Assembly (NCBI RefSeq): GCF_018847975.1
Contig: NZ_CP072597.1
Span: 1,116,001-1,180,000 of the forward strand
Origin: Lysobacter sp. K5869
Lineage (GTDB): Bacteria > Pseudomonadota > Gammaproteobacteria > Xanthomonadales > Xanthomonadaceae
Reading direction: 5' to 3'
DNA length: 64,000 bases
Part shown: positions 43,043-52,414 of the stretch, in pieces
Layout of the letters: each line of letters begins with the position of its first letter
Position numbering within the stretch: position 1 is the first letter of the stretch
Notes under the pieces: generated by a model
The model's input: only the letters and a program-made list of their open reading frames with translations
Told to the model about the DNA's origin: nothing
Database searches by the model: none
Program-made: the position numbers and the translations under genes

Positions 43043-43993
43043 TCAGTCCGTGGTTTCGGATTCGTAAGCGATGTGCGCACGGCGATTCTTCGCCCGTCCT
43101 TCCGCGCTAGCGTTGTCGCCGATGGGGCGGGCCGCGCCGAAGCCCTTGGGGGGATTCAGCCGCGCCGGTGGTATGCCGTGATCGATGAGCCATCGATGCA
43201 TCAGTTCGGCTCGGCGCAGCGACAGGCGTACGCAGGCTTCGCCACCGCACTCCTCGGTGTCGGTGTAGCCGACGACGCGCAGCCGCTCGTCAGCCGGCAC
43301 CGTCGGAATCATGGCCAAATCGTGCCGTAGCGCGGCCTCCGACAGCTTCGGCAGAGGCGCCGATGCCGGCAGCAGTGGTTCATCGATTCGAGGTTCGCCC
43401 GATTCGAAATGGATACCGTGGAAGTCGTCGGCGTTGATGAAGACCTGAGTACGGTCCGCGGGTAATTCCTTCGACACAGGTTCTTCGTCGATCCAGACCT
43501 CGACGCGACGCGAGATATTTCGATCGCCTTCGGCGTAGATTACAGAGCCCATATAAGGACCATTACCTACCGCTCTCAGCCTCGATCTCGAAATTCCGTT
43601 CGCGACCAACCAATCGATCAGTACCTGCGCGCGCCGCTGCGACAGCGCGATGCATTCGGCGCCCGCGCATTCGATATCGTCCGTCGACCCGACCACTTTC
43701 ACGGGCATGGAACCCAGGCGCTCGATCAGCCTGAGATTGTCGCGCATGTGCGCGCGCATGAGCCCGGGTCCCATCATCGATTGATATAGGCGCTCGCCCG
43801 CCACCGGGTGGCCGCTGCGGAACTGTGGCGAGAAGAATTCCGGTCCCTCCGGGTAAAGCACGTCCGCGTAGCGTACGTGCGAGGCCGCGCAAGAGGTCAG
43901 AAAGGCGAGTAGAACGGCTGATGCCGCCGCCCGCACGATTCGATCGGCAGTGGCGCCGCACTCGATATGCGCTATCGCATTCGTCGATATCAT
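43043..43993 (-). CDS. Lipoprotein with two OmpA-C-like domains carrying C-x4-C motifs
   Basis: 316 residues. The start region has an unusually long N-region followed by hydrophobic AASAVLLAFLTSC, a possible lipobox (C35). Two related domains follow (about 52-170 and 190-312). Each starts with an F-x-S-G-x-P motif (PQFRSGHPVAGE, IHFESGEPRIDE) and has the OmpA peptidoglycan-binding residues Asp and Arg (VGSTDDIEC...LSQRRA, VGYTDTEEC...LSLRRA). Between them sits C-x4-C (C109/C114, C249/C254), where normal OmpA-C domains have no cysteines. Probably periplasmic or outer-membrane, binding peptidoglycan. Downstream-most of three such genes next to an Rhs locus; role unknown. Confidence 0.75.
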   Translation of the reverse strand: MISTNAIAHIECGATADRIVRAAASAVLLAFLTSCAASHVRYADVLYPEGPEFFSPQFRSGHPVAGERLYQSMMGPGLMRAHMRDNLRLIERLGSMPVKVVGSTDDIECAGAECIALSQRRAQVLIDWLVANGISRSRLRAVGNGPYMGSVIYAEGDRNISRRVEVWIDEEPVSKELPADRTQVFINADDFHGIHFESGEPRIDEPLLPASAPLPKLSEAALRHDLAMIPTVPADERLRVVGYTDTEECGGEACVRLSLRRAELMHRWLIDHGIPPARLNPPKGFGAARPIGDNASAEGRAKNRRAHIAYESETTD

Positions 43994-44017: not shown

Positions 44018-44518
44018 TCACTCATAGCTGATATATGCGCGCCGATTGAGCGCGCGCCCCGCTTCAGTCACGTTGTCGCCGATGGGTTGTTCTGTGCCGA
44101 AGCCTTGTGGCCGGGACAGCCTCGTTCTGTGCACGCCGTGATCGACGAGCCAATCGGCCAGAAACTTGGCCCGGCGCAGGGACAACTCACGGCAAGCGAC
44201 CCCGGAGCACTCGGCCGAATCGGCGAAGCCGGCGGTTCCCAGAGCGATGTCGGTGGGCGCCGCTTTGAGCAGTTCCAAGTCGCTTTTCAGCGCTGCTTCG
44301 TCGGCGGGCGATTGAAGCGCCGCAAGGGAGGGCGTCTCGCCGGCGCGAGGTCGGCCCGCCTTGAATGTGATGCCGATGAAGTCGGCGGGGTCGGAAAAAT
44401 AGATCCGATGGACGTTGTCGCTTATTGAGGATGAGGGAACTCGCTCGGTCGCGTGCGCGAAAATGGCGAATGCAAAACATGCGATCGCAATCAAAGTGAT
44501 GTGCCGGCAAGATGTCAT
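44018..44518 (-). CDS. Exported single OmpA-C-like domain protein with C-x4-C motif
   Basis: 166 residues. Signal peptide HITLIAIACFAFAIFAHA-T. One domain: ITFKAGRPRAGETPSL, GFADSAECSGVACRELSLRRAKFLADWLVDHG (Asp, C104/C109, Arg of the OmpA signature) and GDNVTEAGRALNRRAYISYE at the end. It is closest to domain 2 of the gene 24 bp downstream, so the two arose by duplication. ATG 44518 is preceded by GGAAGAG 8 nt upstream; a TTG two codons earlier is not needed. Probably co-transcribed with its neighbour. Confidence 0.75.
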   Translation of the reverse strand: MTSCRHITLIAIACFAFAIFAHATERVPSSSISDNVHRIYFSDPADFIGITFKAGRPRAGETPSLAALQSPADEAALKSDLELLKAAPTDIALGTAGFADSAECSGVACRELSLRRAKFLADWLVDHGVHRTRLSRPQGFGTEQPIGDNVTEAGRALNRRAYISYE

Positions 44519-44785
44519 GAGCAAGCTCTTCCTTGATCGATGTTCATGCGTCGCGCCTCAGGCATAGAAGAACCGCTGCGTAGATTGTTTGGGTCGTTTG
44601 TTCGAGGGTGGATCGCCGCTAAGCGTCGAGGTGCCGGATTGTCTTATTGGAGCGCTCGCGGCCATGCGTCGTTAGAAAGAAGATCGTACTTGCTCAGGCC
44701 CCTCTCTATACCCAACGGAATCCGAAGAACGACGTGATTTAGCACCTATGCGGATCGGCTTGTATAGCGAAGTTCGTATGTTCGC

Positions 44786-45298
44786 TCAATCGACAGACTG
44801 CAAAATTTCCACTCGCCGATTTCTGGCTCTTCCTTCAGCGGTCTCGCCTATATCTAGTGGCATGACACTGCCTCTTCCATTGGGAGGATTGAGCGATTTC
44901 GGAGATATGCCTCTCGAAATCAGCCACCGGTAAACCAATTCCGCTCTCGCGGCTGACAGGTCTTTGCACGCGACTGCGTTGCATTCGTTGTAATCCGTGT
45001 AGCCGATCACATCGAACTTTAGGTGCGGATTGTTTTCTATGATCTGCTTGTCCCTTACCAACGCTTTCAAATCGAAGCTGCGGCTAGCCAATGCCGACGC
45101 CAGTGACTCGTTCGTCCGCGGATGCCCAGACTTGAATTCGACCGAAGTCGTGGACAGCCCACAAGATGACGATGGCAATTCTCCTTGAGTCGAATTATTA
45201 GAGTGAGTCCGAGGCAGTTGCGTGCAAGAGCAGGCGGTCGTTAAAAAAATGGCCAGGGCTGCCGATCGGATCGATGTAGCACTTGCGCTGACCGTCAT
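44786..45298 (-). CDS. OmpA-C-like lipoprotein with C-x4-C motif
   Basis: 170 residues. Start fixed by a strong GGAAGGAAG 5-13 nt before ATG 45298. Lipobox IFLTTAC (C23). The domain includes VEFKSGHPRTNESLA, VIGYTDYNECNAVACKDLSA with C106/C111, ARAELVYRWLISRGISPKSL and the terminal EGRARNRRVEILQ. It shares the four-part pattern of the other two genes but is the most divergent, and its DNA is visibly lower in GC. The flanking gaps of 267 bp (44519-44785) and 279 bp (45299-45577) are AT-richer and contain no other convincing gene. Confidence 0.75.
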   Translation of the reverse strand: MTVSASATSIRSAALAIFLTTACSCTQLPRTHSNNSTQGELPSSSCGLSTTSVEFKSGHPRTNESLASALASRSFDLKALVRDKQIIENNPHLKFDVIGYTDYNECNAVACKDLSAARAELVYRWLISRGISPKSLNPPNGRGSVMPLDIGETAEGRARNRRVEILQSVD

Positions 45299-45577
45299 CG
45301 CAACTTCCTTCCATGCAGGCATTGATGGTGCTCCGTGCGCGCGGGAGGTCACCTGAGGTCTCGACTTCGGCCGACTATGCGCTGGAGCCGGCGGCATTTT
45401 TCGTGGAACTTAGGACGAGCCCGCATGCTGCTTAGGGGCCATGCCATCGCTGAAATCAGGCTCCAATCGGCGTCCCTAAAAGACTGCAGTAGGGAATGGA
45501 ATTCCAATGCGCGAGCATGGCGATCTCTCTCGTCGGAGCGTCAGCATCGAAGACTGATGCGACTGTCCGCGCCACCT

Positions 45578-46093
45578 CTACGGCGTGAGCTTAGGCAGCT
45601 TCTCCGCCGCGGTTTGTACGATCCCAAGCTTCTTTCCGAAGCGCTCAAAGAAATCCGGCTCCTCGATGCCTATGCCGTAAGTCTTGCCCAATTCGGATGT
45701 GACATAAGGGGTGTCATAGGAAATAAGTCTGAAATAGGTGTTGCGCGGCTGGGCTAGCACTACAGCATCCGCCGAGAAAACTATTTCCTTCGATTTATTT
45801 ATTTTCCCGGCGATGATGTAGTTCTCCGAAATCAAGATCGGGGCGGGCCCGCAGAGCTTTACTTTTCTTCCAGGGCGGATATCGCCTTTTAGCGCCTGCC
45901 GAACTCTCATTAGATATATGGCGTTAGGGTTTTCACCAGCGCATGAGCCGAGGCTTGCGCTGACAACAAGGCCGGATACTACGGTATCTGCATCTTCGTA
46001 GACCGAACTGAGTGGGCGAGTAATGCCATTCTCCGCGTGGCTTTCGACGGAAACTGCAAGAAGAATAAGAAAAACAACGGGCACCATTTTCAT
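45578..46093 (-). CDS. Exported protein of unknown function, candidate immunity partner of the Rhs-core/peptidase gene
   Basis: 171 residues. Signal peptide VVFLILLAVSVESHA. The mature part includes SVYEDADTVVSGLVVSASLG, YLMRVRQALKGDIRPGRKVKL, ILISENYIIAGKINKSKEIV and FFERFGKKLGIVQTAAEKLP; the V-x-G-x-V...V-x-x-x-LKGD pattern occurs in OB-fold, TIMP-like secreted domains that can inhibit metallopeptidases, but that is only a resemblance. One pair of Cys (GSCAGE, KLCGPA). Its ATG overlaps the stop of the upstream gene (ATGA), so it is made in step with the toxin-like protein. Base composition is low-GC for this genome. Confidence 0.6.
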   Translation of the reverse strand: MKMVPVVFLILLAVSVESHAENGITRPLSSVYEDADTVVSGLVVSASLGSCAGENPNAIYLMRVRQALKGDIRPGRKVKLCGPAPILISENYIIAGKINKSKEIVFSADAVVLAQPRNTYFRLISYDTPYVTSELGKTYGIGIEEPDFFERFGKKLGIVQTAAEKLPKLTP

Positions 46094-47034
46094 TGCTGTT
46101 TGTCCTTTTGATCGATATTCCGATGTCCCCCGGCAGGAAATCCAAGCGACCTCTGGAAGTTGTCCGCGTCAATTTCATACGCTGATCCAGGGCCCATATG
46201 CATCCTTGCGTCGCGTTGTTCATTGTAGATTAGGACGTTGCCGGCAGTGAAGTGATGGATCTCATGGAGCATCATGCCCAAATGGAAGCCCGCCCATAAA
46301 TTTGAGAACGGCGTGGCGTTAATGATCATGTCGTAAGTGGGCGGCTTTGTAACGAAGGCCTTCTCAGCTCCGGTTTGCTCCACGGACATATAAACACTCA
46401 TTTTGTTGAATATTTGGACGTGCTCGTTCAAGCCCCGTTCGCCTAGTTCTTTTCCTGCGCGGTTGAGTGCGTCAGCGGCTTTTTCCCGTTCGGGATAAAG
46501 CTCGTCGGCTTTATTTGATCCAGTTGCTAGCGGAACTGGTGTTTGCGACCGAGCGTTGTACGACTGAATAACCGTTATGTCACTCGCCGAAAAGGTCTTT
46601 GTATTGAAGCAGATGCGAGTGCCTGTGCGCGGCTCACAGCGCCCATCCGGATCAGTGAATTTATATGGGTTGTTCAATGCATAGGTGTAGCGGCCGAATC
46701 CACCGCCGGTTTTTGTATCGGTCATTACCGGGTCGACGCTAAGGAATCGTCCGATTTCTGAATCAAAGTAGCGTTGTTGCATATAGGACAAGCCGGTTGC
46801 CGAGTCGCTTACGTGCCCGGTGTATCCAGGGCCGTCCGAGGGAAGGCGATTGGTTAGGCGCCCGTATGGTTCGTATTCGCTACGTTCGACCACGTTCTGG
46901 CTGCTATCGGTCACGGCGACCGGCGAACCCAGCCCATCAGTGTGGATGTACTCCACCACGACTTGAGCTCGAGCTGAGAGCGAAGAAGTTACAAGTGCTA
47001 CGGTCCACGCCCACTTCGGAATGTTCCTTTTCAT
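46090..47034 (-). CDS. Exported Rhs core fragment fused to a putative HExxH metallopeptidase (toxin candidate)
   Basis: 314 residues. Its own signal peptide (AWTVALVTSSLSARAQ) precedes an Rhs-associated core: EYIHTDGLGSPVAVTDSSQN, EYEPYGRL, PGYTGHVSDSATGLSYMQQRYFDSEIGRF, LSVDP and NNPYKFTDPDG, where polymorphic Rhs toxins begin their variable C-terminus. The variable part (about 132-314) contains MMLHEIHHFTAG (H257-E-x-x-H261) and, 26 residues on, YEIDAD (E287-x3-D291), a gluzincin-like HExxH...ExxxD set. This suggests a zinc peptidase toxin domain; activity is unproven. Normally these core residues are part of the large Rhs protein, which here is encoded separately 10 bp upstream. Confidence 0.78.
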   Translation of the reverse strand: MKRNIPKWAWTVALVTSSLSARAQVVVEYIHTDGLGSPVAVTDSSQNVVERSEYEPYGRLTNRLPSDGPGYTGHVSDSATGLSYMQQRYFDSEIGRFLSVDPVMTDTKTGGGFGRYTYALNNPYKFTDPDGRCEPRTGTRICFNTKTFSASDITVIQSYNARSQTPVPLATGSNKADELYPEREKAADALNRAGKELGERGLNEHVQIFNKMSVYMSVEQTGAEKAFVTKPPTYDMIINATPFSNLWAGFHLGMMLHEIHHFTAGNVLIYNEQRDARMHMGPGSAYEIDADNFQRSLGFPAGGHRNIDQKDKQQ

Positions 47035-47044
47035 TGTATTCGCC

Positions 47045-48440
47045 TCAATCCATCGGCTCAGTGCGTCGGGTCGCGGGATATGCCGGCGTCGACCACGCCG
47101 AGCACCCACCCGTCCCGCAAGCGCGCACCGCATAGTTCAACGCGCAGTACTGTCCGCTAGAGGCCGAAGCCACCTGCGTCGCCGCGCCGCGATACAGCAG
47201 CGCGCCGGTATCCGCCGACTGCAACTCATAGTTCTGTGTTTTCGCGGAGGCGTTCCAGCGCACCGTGCAGGTGTCGTTGACCACGCGCCCACGCAACGTA
47301 TTGCGCAACCAGTCCGCCAGCGTGATGGCGGGTGCCGCGGGCGGCAGGTCCACGGTGATGAAGCGCGCCTCCGAATACGGTCCGCAGCCGGGGTAGTGGC
47401 ATCCACGCGCGCGGTAGGCGTAGCGGCCGTCGCCGCGGCCGCTGATGGTCGCGTTCGGCGCCCAGTCTTGGTACACCATCGTCCAGGCGCCGCCTTCGCG
47501 GCTTTCCTCCAATTGATAGGACGTGGCGCCGGCGACCATGTTCCAACTCAATGCATAGGTGCCGGCGTTGCTGGTGGCCTCCAGATTGATCGAGGGTGCG
47601 GTGGTCGGCGGTCCCGTCACCGCGACGCTGACCTCGGCCGAAGTAGCGCCGCAGCCGGCGGCGTTGCAGGCGCGCGCGCGATAACGATAGGTTCCGGTAT
47701 CGCCCCCGACGATGGTGCGACTCGTGTCCGCCGACTCTTGGATCAGCGTCCAACCGCCGCCCAGCGCGCTTTGCTCCAGTTGATAGCGATTCGCCCCGCC
47801 GACAGCGTTCCACGCGACGACGAAACTGCCGCGATCGCTCTGCGCCGGCGCGCTCAAGGTCGGGGCCGAACCCGGCGGGTACAGAACCGAGACGTTGCTG
47901 ACGGCTGAGGTCGGACCGCAGCCCGCCGGGTTGCAGGCCTTCGCGCGATAAGCGAACTCCCCGTAAGGCTTGGCCGAGAACGCCTGCGCGAGCGCTGCGC
48001 CGCTGTAGGCCGTGCTCCAAGCGCCACTGTTGAAGCTCTCTTCCAGCGCATAGTCGGTAGCGCCGCCGACCGCGGCCCAGCTGACGTTGTACAGCCCGTT
48101 CAATGCCGTGGACGGTGCGGCCAATACGGGCGCTTCGGTCGGGGGGCGTTGCACTTGCACGGTCGCCTCCACGCTCCACAGGCCGCAACCGCCACTGCCG
48201 TTGCAGGCGCGCACCCGATAACCGTAGCCGCCGCTGACATGCCCGGAAATCGCGCGGCTGCGTTCGGTGCCGCTGTATAGCGCCTGCCAGGCGCCGCCGT
48301 TGGTGCGTTCCTGCAACTCGTAACTGCCGGAAGCGGTAACGTTGCTCCAGGTGACGGTGTAACTGGTTTGCGAGACATAACTGGGCGCGGACAACACCGG
48401 CACATCGGGGGCCGTCGGCGCGGTCGCCTTCGCCACCAAG
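47045..48440 (-). repeat. Five tandem Fn3-like repeats at the end of the Rhs protein
   Basis: Each unit is about 87-90 codons and ends in a pattern such as YRARACNAAGCG or YRAKACNPAGCGPTS with two Cys per unit; units start with APVLxAPS/APTLSAPA. The first four are clearly related (for example YNVSWAAVGGATDYALEE, VVAWNAVGGANRYQLEQ, LSWNMVAGATSYQLEE). The fifth is more divergent (CTVRWNASAKTQNYELQS, NYAVRACGTGGCSAWS). They could display the protein at the surface or bind the split core partner. Confidence 0.8.
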
Positions 48441-51400
48441 CTCCCGTTCAAGTGGAAGTAGGCGGTGTCCTTCTCCTTGCGGAAGTCGCGCTGATAGCGC
48501 AGCACGCCGTCCTGGCTGTACATCGAGACGATGCGGCCGAGCGAGGGACTGGTGGACAGCACGCGACGGCCGTGGGCGTCGTAGCGATAGGATTCGGCAT
48601 CCTTGGCTTCGCGCAGGCGGTTGCCGAAGTCGAAATCGAACGACTGGCCGTTCTTGTTGCGCAGGTTGCCCTGCTCGTCGTAACCCAGGCCGATTACGCC
48701 GGCGCCGGCCGGAGTCTTGACCAGTTCGAGCTGGTTCAATCCGTTGTAGTGGTAGACGTGCTGACGACCCGGAACGATCGCCGTGCCGGCAACGTCGACC
48801 GTGCGCAGATTGTCGAGCGCGTCGTAGCTGTAGGACGCATTGCCGAACATCGACGACGCGGCGGCCGTCAGCCGGTCCAATCCGTCGTAGGTCATGCTGC
48901 GGTTGCCCGGCGCGCCCGCGCGGCCGTCGCTGATGGCGGCGACGTTGCCGTTGGCGTCGTAGTCGTAGCTGTCGTCCAGCACGGTGGCCGTGCCGGCGTC
49001 GCGGCTGCGCTCGGCGAGGCCGCGCGCGTTCTGCTGCAGGGTATGGACGATGCCGTTGCCATAGACGAAGCGCGCCATGCCGCCGTTGGCGAAATAGCTC
49101 ACCTCGCTGGCGTAGCTGCCCGAGCGCGTGGGTTGGCCGAGGCCGTTGGTGTCGTAGGCGATCTGTTGCCCGTTGGGATAGGTGTGCGAGGCGAGTTTCC
49201 CCTCGTTGGTATAGCCCAGTCCGAAACCCCACTCGAAGCTGTCGAAAATCATTTGCTCGGCGGTCGGCAAACGCAGTTTGTTGTACGAGTAGCGGTTGGT
49301 GACCGTGTCGCCGCCGGCCTTGTTCTGAGTCGCGATTTCCTTAGGCAGGCCATCGGGGTAGTACGTCCAGGTCTGGTTGCCGCGGCCGTCCGGGAAGCTC
49401 AAGGTCTTGACGCGATTGCGCGCGTCGTAGGTGCGGCCGACCGCGCGGCCGGAGGCCAAGGCCTCGTCGCGATTGCAGTTGTCGGTCGCCCCCAAGGACA
49501 GGCCGGACGCGCTCCAGGCGGGATTGTTGGCCGCGTCGTAACCGACCACGGTGGCGCCGGTTTCGGGTTCGACGGTCTTGCACAGGCGATGCTGGCCATC
49601 GAAGACGTAGCTTCGGGTGACCTGCGTCGCTCCATCCTCGCTGCTGCGACGAATCGCGGTCGCGGCGCCGAGAACGTCGCGCCAAATGTTGGTGCGCGCC
49701 CCTTCAGGATGAACGATCGACACCGGCGCGTCGGTGCTGGGTTGGTCGAAGGTCTGGTAGGCCGTGGTGGTTTGGGACTGGCGCGGGTTGGTGGTGCGGG
49801 TGAGGAACCCCGCCAGATACTCGGTGCGCGTGCTCAACCGACCCAATTCGCTGTCCTGCTGAACCAGCGAAACGCGGCCGAGGGTGTCGTAGTCGGTGTA
49901 GGCGCCCTTCAACGTCGTGGAGAAGACATCGGGGAAGGCTTCGGCATAGCCCAGCGGATAGCTAGCGAAAACCGTGCGCCCTTTTTCGTCGTAGCGTTGC
50001 ACGCTCGCGCGCAACGTACCCGGGATGTCGGCGCAGTCCCATTCGTGGGTGAGGACCGGCCGCCAGAAGCCATCCAGGAACACGTTCTTGCAGTAGCGTC
50101 CACCGACGATCGTGGTGTGCTTCCAGTGGCCCGGTGCGAGGCCGTACTCCGTCGTGTCCCGGCGGGTCAGGCTGATCTCGGTCGAACTCCATGTGTTGGT
50201 GTCGCCGGTCGGCGGCGTAACCGTATTCAACCGGCCCGCAGGATCGTAGGCGTAGCTCGTGGTGTAGCCGTTTTCGTCGGTCACCGAACTCAGCCAGCCG
50301 TTGTCGTCGACTACGGCCGCATCGCTGCTGGCGTCCGCGTACTGGATCGATTGCGGCACGCCGCGCTTCCAAGAGCCCAGAGTGGTGACGTTGCCGGCGC
50401 CGTCGGTGACCGTCGCGAGAGTGCCGTCGGCGTTGTAACCGTAGCTTTCGATCAAGCGGCCGAATGCGTAGCGTTGCGAAGGCCGCGCCTGCGCGTCGTA
50501 AGCGGTTTGGGACGTTACCCAGCCGGTGTCGGAGTTGGTTTCCTTGGCGGGCTGCCCCAACACCCACAGGGCGAGATCGTCGTGGTACTCGGTGGCGGTG
50601 GTGCGGCTGCCGTCGTTGGCGGTGCCGGAGGACCATGCCGTCGTGTTGGTCGGCCGCGCCAGTGCATCGAAGGCATTGATGGCGCGGTTGAACGCGGCGC
50701 CGTCCTGTTGCGTGGACACGTTCTTGAGCGGCCGGTTGGAATTCGGCAGCTTGTCCGCGTATTCATCGCCGTTCGTGCCCATCCAATCGGGAAAGGGCAT
50801 GCCGCCGGCTTCGGCGTCGCCGACATAGGTGTTGAGCGCGGTGCGGTAGGTCGTGCCGTCCTTTTTGGTTTCGACCTTGAGCAGTTGCCCCTCGTTGATG
50901 TCGCGGTCGCGCCCGAAGGTGTGGACGTTTTGGGTGCCGTCGGGCTCGGTGACGGTTACGGTCTTGTAGTTCGGGGCGGGCGGCGCGTACTTGGCGTTCC
51001 AGCCCGCACCGATATCCCATCGCGACTCGTCCTGCGTTTGATAGCCCTCGCCCAGGCCGTCGTAGCCGTAGCGGTAGACCTTCTCGGCGACGCCCGCGGC
51101 GCTGACGTGCTTCTCGACGATCGACCACGTGTCGTGGAAGGTGGAGTAGCGGTTGCGGGGACTGTTGTCGTTGATGCCGGTCTCGCAAGAGAAGGGCACG
51201 TTGGTCCGACCATGCCGCATCGACTTGAAGACGTACTCGGCGACGGCGCCGGAGGGATGGGTGATGCGCGCCTTGCTGAGGGTGTCTTTCAAAATAGCGC
51301 CCGGCGAACAGGGCACGTTTTGTTTGATATAGGTCTGATTGGTGTCGGGATTGAGGAGATACTCGGCGACGTCGAGCCGGAAGGTGCCGAGTTGTCCAGG

Positions 51401-52414
51401 GCCTTCGTACTTCCAGGCAGTGCCGTCCGGGTTTTGAATGTTGCCGCCGTCGCCCGACGGATAAGCGAAGTACCAGGTCCGGCCGTTGGCCGTGGCCGAG
51501 AGGAGGTTGGTCTGCACGTTCCCGGCGAACAGGTACGGCGCCGGATCCGTGTAGGTCATCGTGATCTCGCGCCCGTCGTTGGCGTAGATCCGCTTGGGAT
51601 GGTCGTACTCCCACTCGTACTTCACCCAGTTGCCGAAGCGGTCCTCGATCTTGGTGACGTAGAGCTTGAGTTTGTAGCGGTGGAGCAAGGCATTGGAGAC
51701 GTTGTATCCCCAGGGATGGGTGATCGACGAATAGCGCCGATAAACGAGCCAGTCGAAGGTGTATTTGCTGCCGTCGGGCGCATAGCCGACGAGGCCTTTG
51801 CCGGGGCCGTTCTGCACGCTGGGCAGTTCGGAGAAGTACCAGCCGTCCTTGGTGGCGAAGGTGTAGGTCACCGAATTGTTCGGCTTCACCCGTTTGGGAT
51901 CGTCGGTGATCTTGAGCAAATCGCCGCCGCCGCCGCCGTTGAGGGTCAGGCGGTTGCCGCTCCAGAACATCGAGTAGTCGAAGTCGACGTAGCCGTTGTT
52001 GACCGGCGACGGCACCGGCACCCAGCCGTTGGCCTCGGCGCTTTTGCTGTGATGCACCGCGCCGACATAGGGGATGTCCAGATCCCAGTTGCCGTTCAGC
52101 GGTCCGCCCGTGATGTCGTGCGGATCGAGGAAGACGCCTAGCGCGACCAGCAGCGCGCTGTTGCCCGGCAGCGAGATCACGTCGTGGCTGAAGCGCACGG
52201 TCCCGTTGAACAGATTCACCTTGTCGCCGAAAGCGTCGTCCGACAGGGGCGAGACGTTCTCGGTGGCGCGCACGCGCTTGGCGTACTCGTTCGGCCAGTC
52301 GGTGTTTTGGGCGCGCGCTGGGCTGAGCGCGAACGCCAAAGCGAAAAACAGCGTCCAGGAGAAACCGAATCGCAGCGCGTCGCTGCGAAGAAATCGTGCG
52401 TTCATAAAATTCAT
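47045..52414 (-). CDS. Giant exported Rhs/YD-repeat protein ending in Fn3-like repeats
   Basis: 1789 residues. Signal peptide FGFSWTLFFALAFALSPARAQ. The mature N-terminus (NTDWPNEYAKRVRATENVSP, DKVNLFNGTVRFSHDVISLP) and the following ~450 residues form the Rhs N-terminal part; YD repeats (GYDALGR-type: AYDPAGRLNTVTPPTGDTNT, YDANGNVAAISDGRAG, LGYDEQGNLRNKNG, YRYDAHGRRVLSTSP) continue to about residue 1330. The chain then passes from YFHLNGSLVAK directly into five Fn3-like repeats (to 1789) rather than the Rhs core. No PAAR, VgrG or T6SS gene is present, so export by Sec is likely. ATG 52414 and ATG 52405 are both possible starts. Confidence 0.88.
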   Translation of the reverse strand: MNFMNARFLRSDALRFGFSWTLFFALAFALSPARAQNTDWPNEYAKRVRATENVSPLSDDAFGDKVNLFNGTVRFSHDVISLPGNSALLVALGVFLDPHDITGGPLNGNWDLDIPYVGAVHHSKSAEANGWVPVPSPVNNGYVDFDYSMFWSGNRLTLNGGGGGDLLKITDDPKRVKPNNSVTYTFATKDGWYFSELPSVQNGPGKGLVGYAPDGSKYTFDWLVYRRYSSITHPWGYNVSNALLHRYKLKLYVTKIEDRFGNWVKYEWEYDHPKRIYANDGREITMTYTDPAPYLFAGNVQTNLLSATANGRTWYFAYPSGDGGNIQNPDGTAWKYEGPGQLGTFRLDVAEYLLNPDTNQTYIKQNVPCSPGAILKDTLSKARITHPSGAVAEYVFKSMRHGRTNVPFSCETGINDNSPRNRYSTFHDTWSIVEKHVSAAGVAEKVYRYGYDGLGEGYQTQDESRWDIGAGWNAKYAPPAPNYKTVTVTEPDGTQNVHTFGRDRDINEGQLLKVETKKDGTTYRTALNTYVGDAEAGGMPFPDWMGTNGDEYADKLPNSNRPLKNVSTQQDGAAFNRAINAFDALARPTNTTAWSSGTANDGSRTTATEYHDDLALWVLGQPAKETNSDTGWVTSQTAYDAQARPSQRYAFGRLIESYGYNADGTLATVTDGAGNVTTLGSWKRGVPQSIQYADASSDAAVVDDNGWLSSVTDENGYTTSYAYDPAGRLNTVTPPTGDTNTWSSTEISLTRRDTTEYGLAPGHWKHTTIVGGRYCKNVFLDGFWRPVLTHEWDCADIPGTLRASVQRYDEKGRTVFASYPLGYAEAFPDVFSTTLKGAYTDYDTLGRVSLVQQDSELGRLSTRTEYLAGFLTRTTNPRQSQTTTAYQTFDQPSTDAPVSIVHPEGARTNIWRDVLGAATAIRRSSEDGATQVTRSYVFDGQHRLCKTVEPETGATVVGYDAANNPAWSASGLSLGATDNCNRDEALASGRAVGRTYDARNRVKTLSFPDGRGNQTWTYYPDGLPKEIATQNKAGGDTVTNRYSYNKLRLPTAEQMIFDSFEWGFGLGYTNEGKLASHTYPNGQQIAYDTNGLGQPTRSGSYASEVSYFANGGMARFVYGNGIVHTLQQNARGLAERSRDAGTATVLDDSYDYDANGNVAAISDGRAGAPGNRSMTYDGLDRLTAAASSMFGNASYSYDALDNLRTVDVAGTAIVPGRQHVYHYNGLNQLELVKTPAGAGVIGLGYDEQGNLRNKNGQSFDFDFGNRLREAKDAESYRYDAHGRRVLSTSPSLGRIVSMYSQDGVLRYQRDFRKEKDTAYFHLNGSLVAKATAPTAPDVPVLSAPSYVSQTSYTVTWSNVTASGSYELQERTNGGAWQALYSGTERSRAISGHVSGGYGYRVRACNGSGGCGLWSVEATVQVQRPPTEAPVLAAPSTALNGLYNVSWAAVGGATDYALEESFNSGAWSTAYSGAALAQAFSAKPYGEFAYRAKACNPAGCGPTSAVSNVSVLYPPGSAPTLSAPAQSDRGSFVVAWNAVGGANRYQLEQSALGGGWTLIQESADTSRTIVGGDTGTYRYRARACNAAGCGATSAEVSVAVTGPPTTAPSINLEATSNAGTYALSWNMVAGATSYQLEESREGGAWTMVYQDWAPNATISGRGDGRYAYRARGCHYPGCGPYSEARFITVDLPPAAPAITLADWLRNTLRGRVVNDTCTVRWNASAKTQNYELQSADTGALLYRGAATQVASASSGQYCALNYAVRACGTGGCSAWSTPAYPATRRTEPMD

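Follow-up and report, generated by a model that had tools for sequence, protein, structure and literature searches.

The question raised by this locus is whether one Rhs protein can be made as two polypeptides that are exported separately. The locus lies in a stretch of 64,000 nucleotides from Lysobacter sp. K5869 (the window hereafter), in which two neighbouring open reading frames, ORF1 and ORF2, hold the parts of an Rhs toxin and are followed by a third, ORF3. Rhs cocoons are usually seen as single chains, or as TcB/TcC pairs, that fold in the cytoplasm around the toxin. An initial annotation had proposed that the Rhs protein is here split into two exported chains, and our analysis bears this out, as ORF1 has a signal peptide and is coreless while the core is found in ORF2, which starts 10 bp further on with a signal peptide of its own. 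We read ORF1 and ORF2 as two chains of one Rhs bacteriocin-type toxin that would be combined after export, with ORF3 as the likely immunity protein, and give this reading a probability of about 0.72.

ORF1 carries the YD/RHS repeats that form the cocoon wall, and the C-terminus following the core is exchangeable (see below), as in Rhs/YD-repeat polymorphic toxins. No Rhs core was found in ORF1, and a Pfam scan at E 0.1 gave neither PAAR/VgrG nor SpvB or an integrin-like propeller in it. The five Fn3-like repeats that had been described at the end of the first gene were recovered (Table 1); this part of 456 residues contains 12 of the 18 Cys of ORF1, which is in keeping with export of the chain. 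ORF1 and ORF2 are complementary parts, cut at the natural shell-core junction as the initial annotation had it: the two matches adjoin each other in all 11 one-chain relatives, that of ORF1 ending at 1328-1335 and that of ORF2 beginning at most 13 residues later. By fold, the ORF1 model covers residues 1355-2036 of the teneurin-like protein (TLP) 9ifo and the core profile covers 2041-2143 (sequence index taken as residue number). The paired aspartates of the self-cleavage motif in the ORF2 core (D101 and D128, 27 apart) are invariant in alignments of 20 and 41 sequences. When ORF2 is modelled alone the predicted local confidence (pLDDT) is below 50 over most of the core (68-141) and about 90 in the C-terminus; for a core that needs its shell such low values are expected.

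A survey of 158 sources (the window, 2 loci of its genome, 77 kept loci and 78 chosen regions) was used to see how the two-gene order recurs; it may be noted that the proportions given here are not frequencies. Dropping duplicates by core plus C-terminus left 184 distinct frames out of 223 core-bearing ones, and these were classed by their start in ORF1 numbering, with 10 at contig edges left unclassed. The remainder comprised 13 one-chain frames, 21 frames cut at a site called S1, 14 at S2, 107 at S3 (core only, the type of the window) and 19 with late starts. The starts fall at 603/604 in 18 of the 21 S1 cases and at 886-985 in S2, and are scattered over 1007-1274 in the late class. On the ORF1 model strands 319-325 and 332-339 flank the S2 cut, and the S3 cut follows strand 726-734. 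Examples of the S1 type are L020, L026 and L048, and of the S2 type L049, L072 and L175, the latter with long extra N-terminal stretches.

The signal-peptide test used in the survey is crude and misses the window's own ORF2, which is thus counted as being without one. Strong signal peptides before the first aligned residue were found in 89 of the 107 S3 frames (control 5.7%), in 16 of 21 S1 second chains (control 9%) and in 11 of 14 S2 second chains, but for the latter the control is 31%; the late, remnant-type frames had none (0/19, control 3%). Restricting the test to the 80 residues before the core gave 89/107 for S3 against 4/48 in chains cut elsewhere or uncut, and, independently of this, 112 of 119 short ORF2 homologues (best 120 of 1649, window included) passed the signal-peptide test. 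In the S2 second chains that have a signal peptide, 167-722 residues of open frame precede the first residues that match ORF1. The late class thus has the look of headless orphan remnants and the S classes differ from it, so that the concern that second genes might be truncated remnants did not materialise. What is seen is one shell family with three fixed cut sites, each followed by a new signal peptide, and it occurs in two-chain and some three-chain versions. The DP..DPxG pair was found by pattern in 89 of the 107 S3 frames.

The partner genes agree with this picture. A coreless shell lies within 100 bp upstream of 45 of the 107 S3 frames (window included), 18 of the 21 S1 and 12 of the 14 S2 frames; the suggestion of an evolved two-component Rhs rather than a frameshift is upheld by these core-only frames and, with three cut places, goes further than proposed. 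Of the 45 shells before S3 frames 44 match the Fn3 part. All 12 S2 shells end at 923-928, and 15 of 19 S1 shells end at 588-596 with at most 11 further residues while 4 do not (one of the 19 lies 170 bp away). Ten more S3 frames are 492-962 bp behind a shell that has a LYQLLL-like end and no Fn3, and small open frames with signal-peptide-like starts, as judged by eye, lie between those shells and cores. Exported-looking genes of ~100-140 aa stand between shell and tip in L071, L150, L015 and L153. Another 12 S3 frames follow another core gene and 4 lack the flank. None of the late frames is behind a coreless shell, and 11 of the 19 are behind another core gene. Seven middle chains span S1 to S3 and all pass the signal-peptide test, that of L125 being doubtful. 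An N-terminal chain upstream and a tip downstream of the middle chain are present in L055, L125, L185 and L188, and L089 has the same three parts, and three chains thus make up the shell at some loci; no N-terminal chain was seen for L061 and L079.

Among 197 genomes of the window's family 103 contain a close core (E<=1e-20); in a sample of 276 genomes from the class the number is 12, of which 3 belong to the same family. The two-gene order, which the initial annotation had advised searching for in other genomes, recurs in separate genomes of Lysobacter and Xanthomonas and also of Stenotrophomonas, Luteimonas, Pseudoxanthomonas and Mizugakiibacter. For the 150 matches listed, out of a larger number, the open frames are below 650 aa in 88 cases (these include remnants), 650-1000 in 4, 1000-1400 in 30 and at least 1400 in 28. 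Compared with L181, the shell has dN 0.09 and dS 0.59, the Fn3 part 0.13 and 1.06, and the core over its first 55 codons 0.19 and 1.47 (beyond these codons dS was not computable); by these values both chains are under purifying selection.

Table 1. Coordinates of the features at the locus, numbered as in the window
Feature	Position	Strand	Description
ORF1	47045-52414	-	1789 aa; coreless Rhs shell chain
ORF1 layout			Sec signal peptide (..SPARA-QN); wall with RHS/YD repeats, to residue 1333; five Fn3-like units at 1334-1789
Fn3-like array, ORF1 C-terminus, residues 1334-1789	47048-48415	-	Fn3 sequence and fold matches; 30-sequence alignment
10-bp gap, ORF1 to ORF2	47035-47044	-	cut site S3; one-chain relatives have a short shell-core linker here
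ORF2	46090-47034	-	314 aa; signal peptide, Rhs core (~27-132), zincin-like C-terminal domain (~141-300)
ORF2 signal peptide, residues 1-23	46966-47034	-	AxA-type site ARA-Q; read from sequence, below the cut-off of the survey predictor
Rhs core of ORF2	46639-46956	-	TIGR03696, 4e-19
ORF2 C-terminal domain	46135-46614	-	HExxH at residues 257-261; zincin-like fold predicted
ORF3	45578-46093	-	171 aa, signal peptide; 4-bp overlap with ORF2; candidate periplasmic immunity protein (position and N-terminus)

No description of a split exported Rhs was found in our literature searches, and known systems were compared with the locus. The Bcn-A locus of Xanthomonas perforans encodes ORFA (1,398 aa), ORF2 (124), ORF3 (100), ORF4 (290) and ORF5 (145), of which ORF4 has a signal peptide and some similarity to WapA/RhsA and ORF5 confers immunity (PMC7259588). 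Killing is abolished by loss of ORFA, ORF2 or ORF4 and reduced by loss of ORF3, and the activity is in the supernatant, not in the cell fraction, and is lost in an xpsD mutant, which shows that killing also requires type II secretion (PMC7259588). Its authors take ORFA as the toxin and ORF4 as acting in delivery or processing, and do not interpret the locus as a split Rhs (PMC7259588). Like the window, Bcn-A has a coreless shell gene and a separate signal-peptide gene for core and toxin, and its immunity gene lies downstream; by the logic of the survey its ORF4 would be core plus toxin, so that an essential small ORF would be the toxin and not a delivery factor, a new reading of the Bcn-A genetics. 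The primer for the end of the Bcn-A shell matches L150 at 18/19 and L071 at 17/19 (other survey loci up to 15), and both these shells end in LYQLLL. The ORF3F primer matches L071 at 21/27 and L150 at 20/27 (others up to 19), and ORF2F/ORF2R have the expected order in both loci with scores no or hardly better than background; the other five of the nine printed primers had no placement in the survey loci. The ORF4 transmembrane peptides had no exact match in the survey loci and matched weakly in one place, the C-terminus of L197 (E 7e-5, 50% over 26 residues). L071 and L150 are thus of the Bcn-A type and not the same sequence. BCN-A and glycinecin R have been listed as Rhs-containing bacteriocins (PMC11639067).

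The Tc toxins are alike in that two polypeptides, TcB and TcC, make up the Rhs cocoon and that core and toxin are on the second of them. TcC also includes much of the wall (ORF1 is matched by YenC2 4-572 at about 876-1335), whereas ORF2 has the core only. A signal peptide on the second chain is to our knowledge not a Tc feature, and this is a difference from ORF2. The Tc B chain has SpvB and an integrin-like propeller (Table 1 of PMC3482391), neither of which our scan found in ORF1; the signal peptide of the first chain is itself no difference, the TcdB/TcaC type having one (Table 1 of PMC3482391). Bacterial teneurin-like proteins and the one-chain exported Rhs of the same family are one chain, unlike the window. 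Type VI Rhs effectors (RhsA, Tse5, Tse15) share the wall fold and the core but are also one chain, whereas the window has Sec signal peptides, with no PAAR/VgrG found in ORF1. Orphan Rhs-CT modules likewise have core and toxin without a shell; they are headless fragments, whereas second genes of the window's type have a fixed starting point and bring a signal peptide of their own.

In the mechanism that we propose, ORF1 would be the cocoon wall and ORF2 its last piece, a core that closes the cocoon and bears the self-cleavage aspartates, joined to a toxic C-terminus predicted to be a zincin-like metallopeptidase. Sec would take each chain across the inner membrane as a polypeptide of its own, and the ORF2 core would close the ORF1 shell in the periplasm or later; assembly outside the cytoplasm is plausible, and the Bcn-A experiments lend it indirect support. 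The core may then cut itself (its aspartates are kept, although the motif ends in Arg), and the complex would most likely leave by type II secretion and attack competing bacteria, while ORF3 would protect the producer. The Fn3 array added at the cut probably has a role outside the cell, such as anchoring or binding of a target or partner. The window's genome carries a gspD above the cut-off; another gspD-like match in that genome (G000:C1:5850153-5851589, minus strand) is weaker, falls below the cut-off and has a TGA inside the matched stretch. Wall strands of one continuous sheet are here divided among separately exported proteins, with the cuts at recurring positions; should these proteins assemble only once exported, enclosure of the toxin would have to take place outside the cytoplasm. 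A wider proposal, to which we would give slightly less than even odds, is that in a whole lineage of Rhs toxins two or three separately Sec-exported chains, divided at three fixed surface loops, come together as a cocoon outside the cytoplasm. Any of several interchangeable tips, among them tips from other places in the genome, could then close one shell, and release as multi-component bacteriocins would follow by the type II route; mixed toxins from one shell and several tips are predicted.

Several points weigh against the two-chain reading. That the chains touch is deduced only indirectly. The signal peptide of the window's ORF2 looks weak, and compared with L181 it is the least conserved stretch before the exchanged region (dN 0.53, dS 1.49). 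Many Rhs proteins have DPxGL at the self-cleavage site, and the ORF2 motif reads DPDGR, ending in Arg. The low pLDDT of the core could stem from a shallow alignment instead. The Bcn-A type has no Fn3 tail and has two small genes (124 and 100 aa), one of them essential, between shell and core, where the window has none and a gap of only 10 bp. Finally, no shell lies within 1.5 kb upstream of 36 of the 107 S3 cores, and of 12 genomes checked, a selection from those with shell-less tips and not all of them, 3 have no shell at E<=1e-20.

Such shell-less tips speak for another explanation, in which proteins of the ORF2 type are free-standing small secreted toxins descended from an Rhs tip and ORF1 is a separate adhesin or delivery protein. 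Among the S3 cores with a signal peptide, 30 of 90 (two in the window's genome) have no shell within that distance. We nevertheless regard this explanation as unlikely, since the other 9 of the 12 genomes do hold a shell, killing by Bcn-A needs both shell and core genes (PMC7259588), the product of an orphan tcC of Yersinia entomophaga assembles with a TcB shell encoded elsewhere (PMC11067744), and most of the lone core is without a confident fold. That every tip strictly requires a shell in the genome that encodes it was not upheld, given the 3 genomes without one. The same genome as the window has two more signal-peptide tip genes with no adjoining shell, L012:8461-9465 (plus strand) and L013:4848-5825 (minus strand), and their products are candidates for using the ORF1 shell in trans. 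Tip genes of the Stenotrophomonas type (L073, L086, L121, L142, L143) have no shell in the fetched stretch and may represent a lineage that stands on its own; in one genus (g25), three genomes are without any shell at E<=1e-20.

A further explanation is that the second gene is a mobile tip cassette swapped whole between shells and that the split exists to ease this. In the 12 closest shell pairs (of 528 among 33 full loci) the C-termini were without a BLASTP match at E 1e-3 in every case, even at 1.4% shell difference, and L185 has four tips behind one shell. Whole-gene copies of tips occur in tandem and as orphans. Tips that follow another tip behind a detected split shell have kept the signal peptide in 8 of 8 cases, as compared to 2 of 14 cores behind one-chain, S1 or S2 heads (one of the two being an independent S2 locus) and 8 of 16 tips behind S3 heads without a detected shell; the split can thus let a displaced tip be a complete exportable gene. 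The four close pairs that were mapped argue otherwise for the exchange itself. Two of them keep DNA identity through the junction, the signal peptide and half of the core and then drop, and in the other two identity already falls at the signal peptide, rises again in the core and then falls off. With identity lost inside the core in all four, the toxins appear to be exchanged there, as is expected for a one-chain Rhs, and the earlier idea of a tip swapped independently as a module at the gene boundary has mostly to be given up. A correlation between shell and core distances also persists (r 0.28, a value that none of 2000 permutations reached), and we consider the cassette explanation improbable. 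That the two ORFs are a single-chain Rhs broken by frameshift, sequencing error or decay, for which only the existence of one-chain versions speaks, is hardly credible and was rejected in view of the new signal peptide and the Fn3 array of 456 residues at the cut, the same order in many genomes of several genera, the purifying selection on both chains, and the different look of the remnant-type frames with their scattered starts and no strong signal peptide.

To return to the proposed two-chain toxin and its neighbours, ORF3 has two homologues besides itself and gave no sequence match in Pfam, NCBIfam or the PDB, searches that likewise returned nothing for the conjecture of a TIMP/NTR-like inhibitor of the metallopeptidase. 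A pairing of ORF3 with ORF2 may recur in P0124 (an ORF3 homologue) and P0030 (64% identical to ORF2), whose contigs are of equal length (129,089), this being its only support. In 52 of the 54 S3 loci that have an open frame of at least 80 aa, the first such frame starts at most 20 bp away, by a loose test that any open frame can pass. Behind ORF3 there are three OmpA-domain genes in a row (43043-43993, 44018-44524 and 44786-45397, all on the minus strand), which may belong to the immunity or envelope functions of such loci. Homologues of these OmpA genes are also present in L012, L017 and L179, and in L012 and L017 they lie downstream of tip genes.

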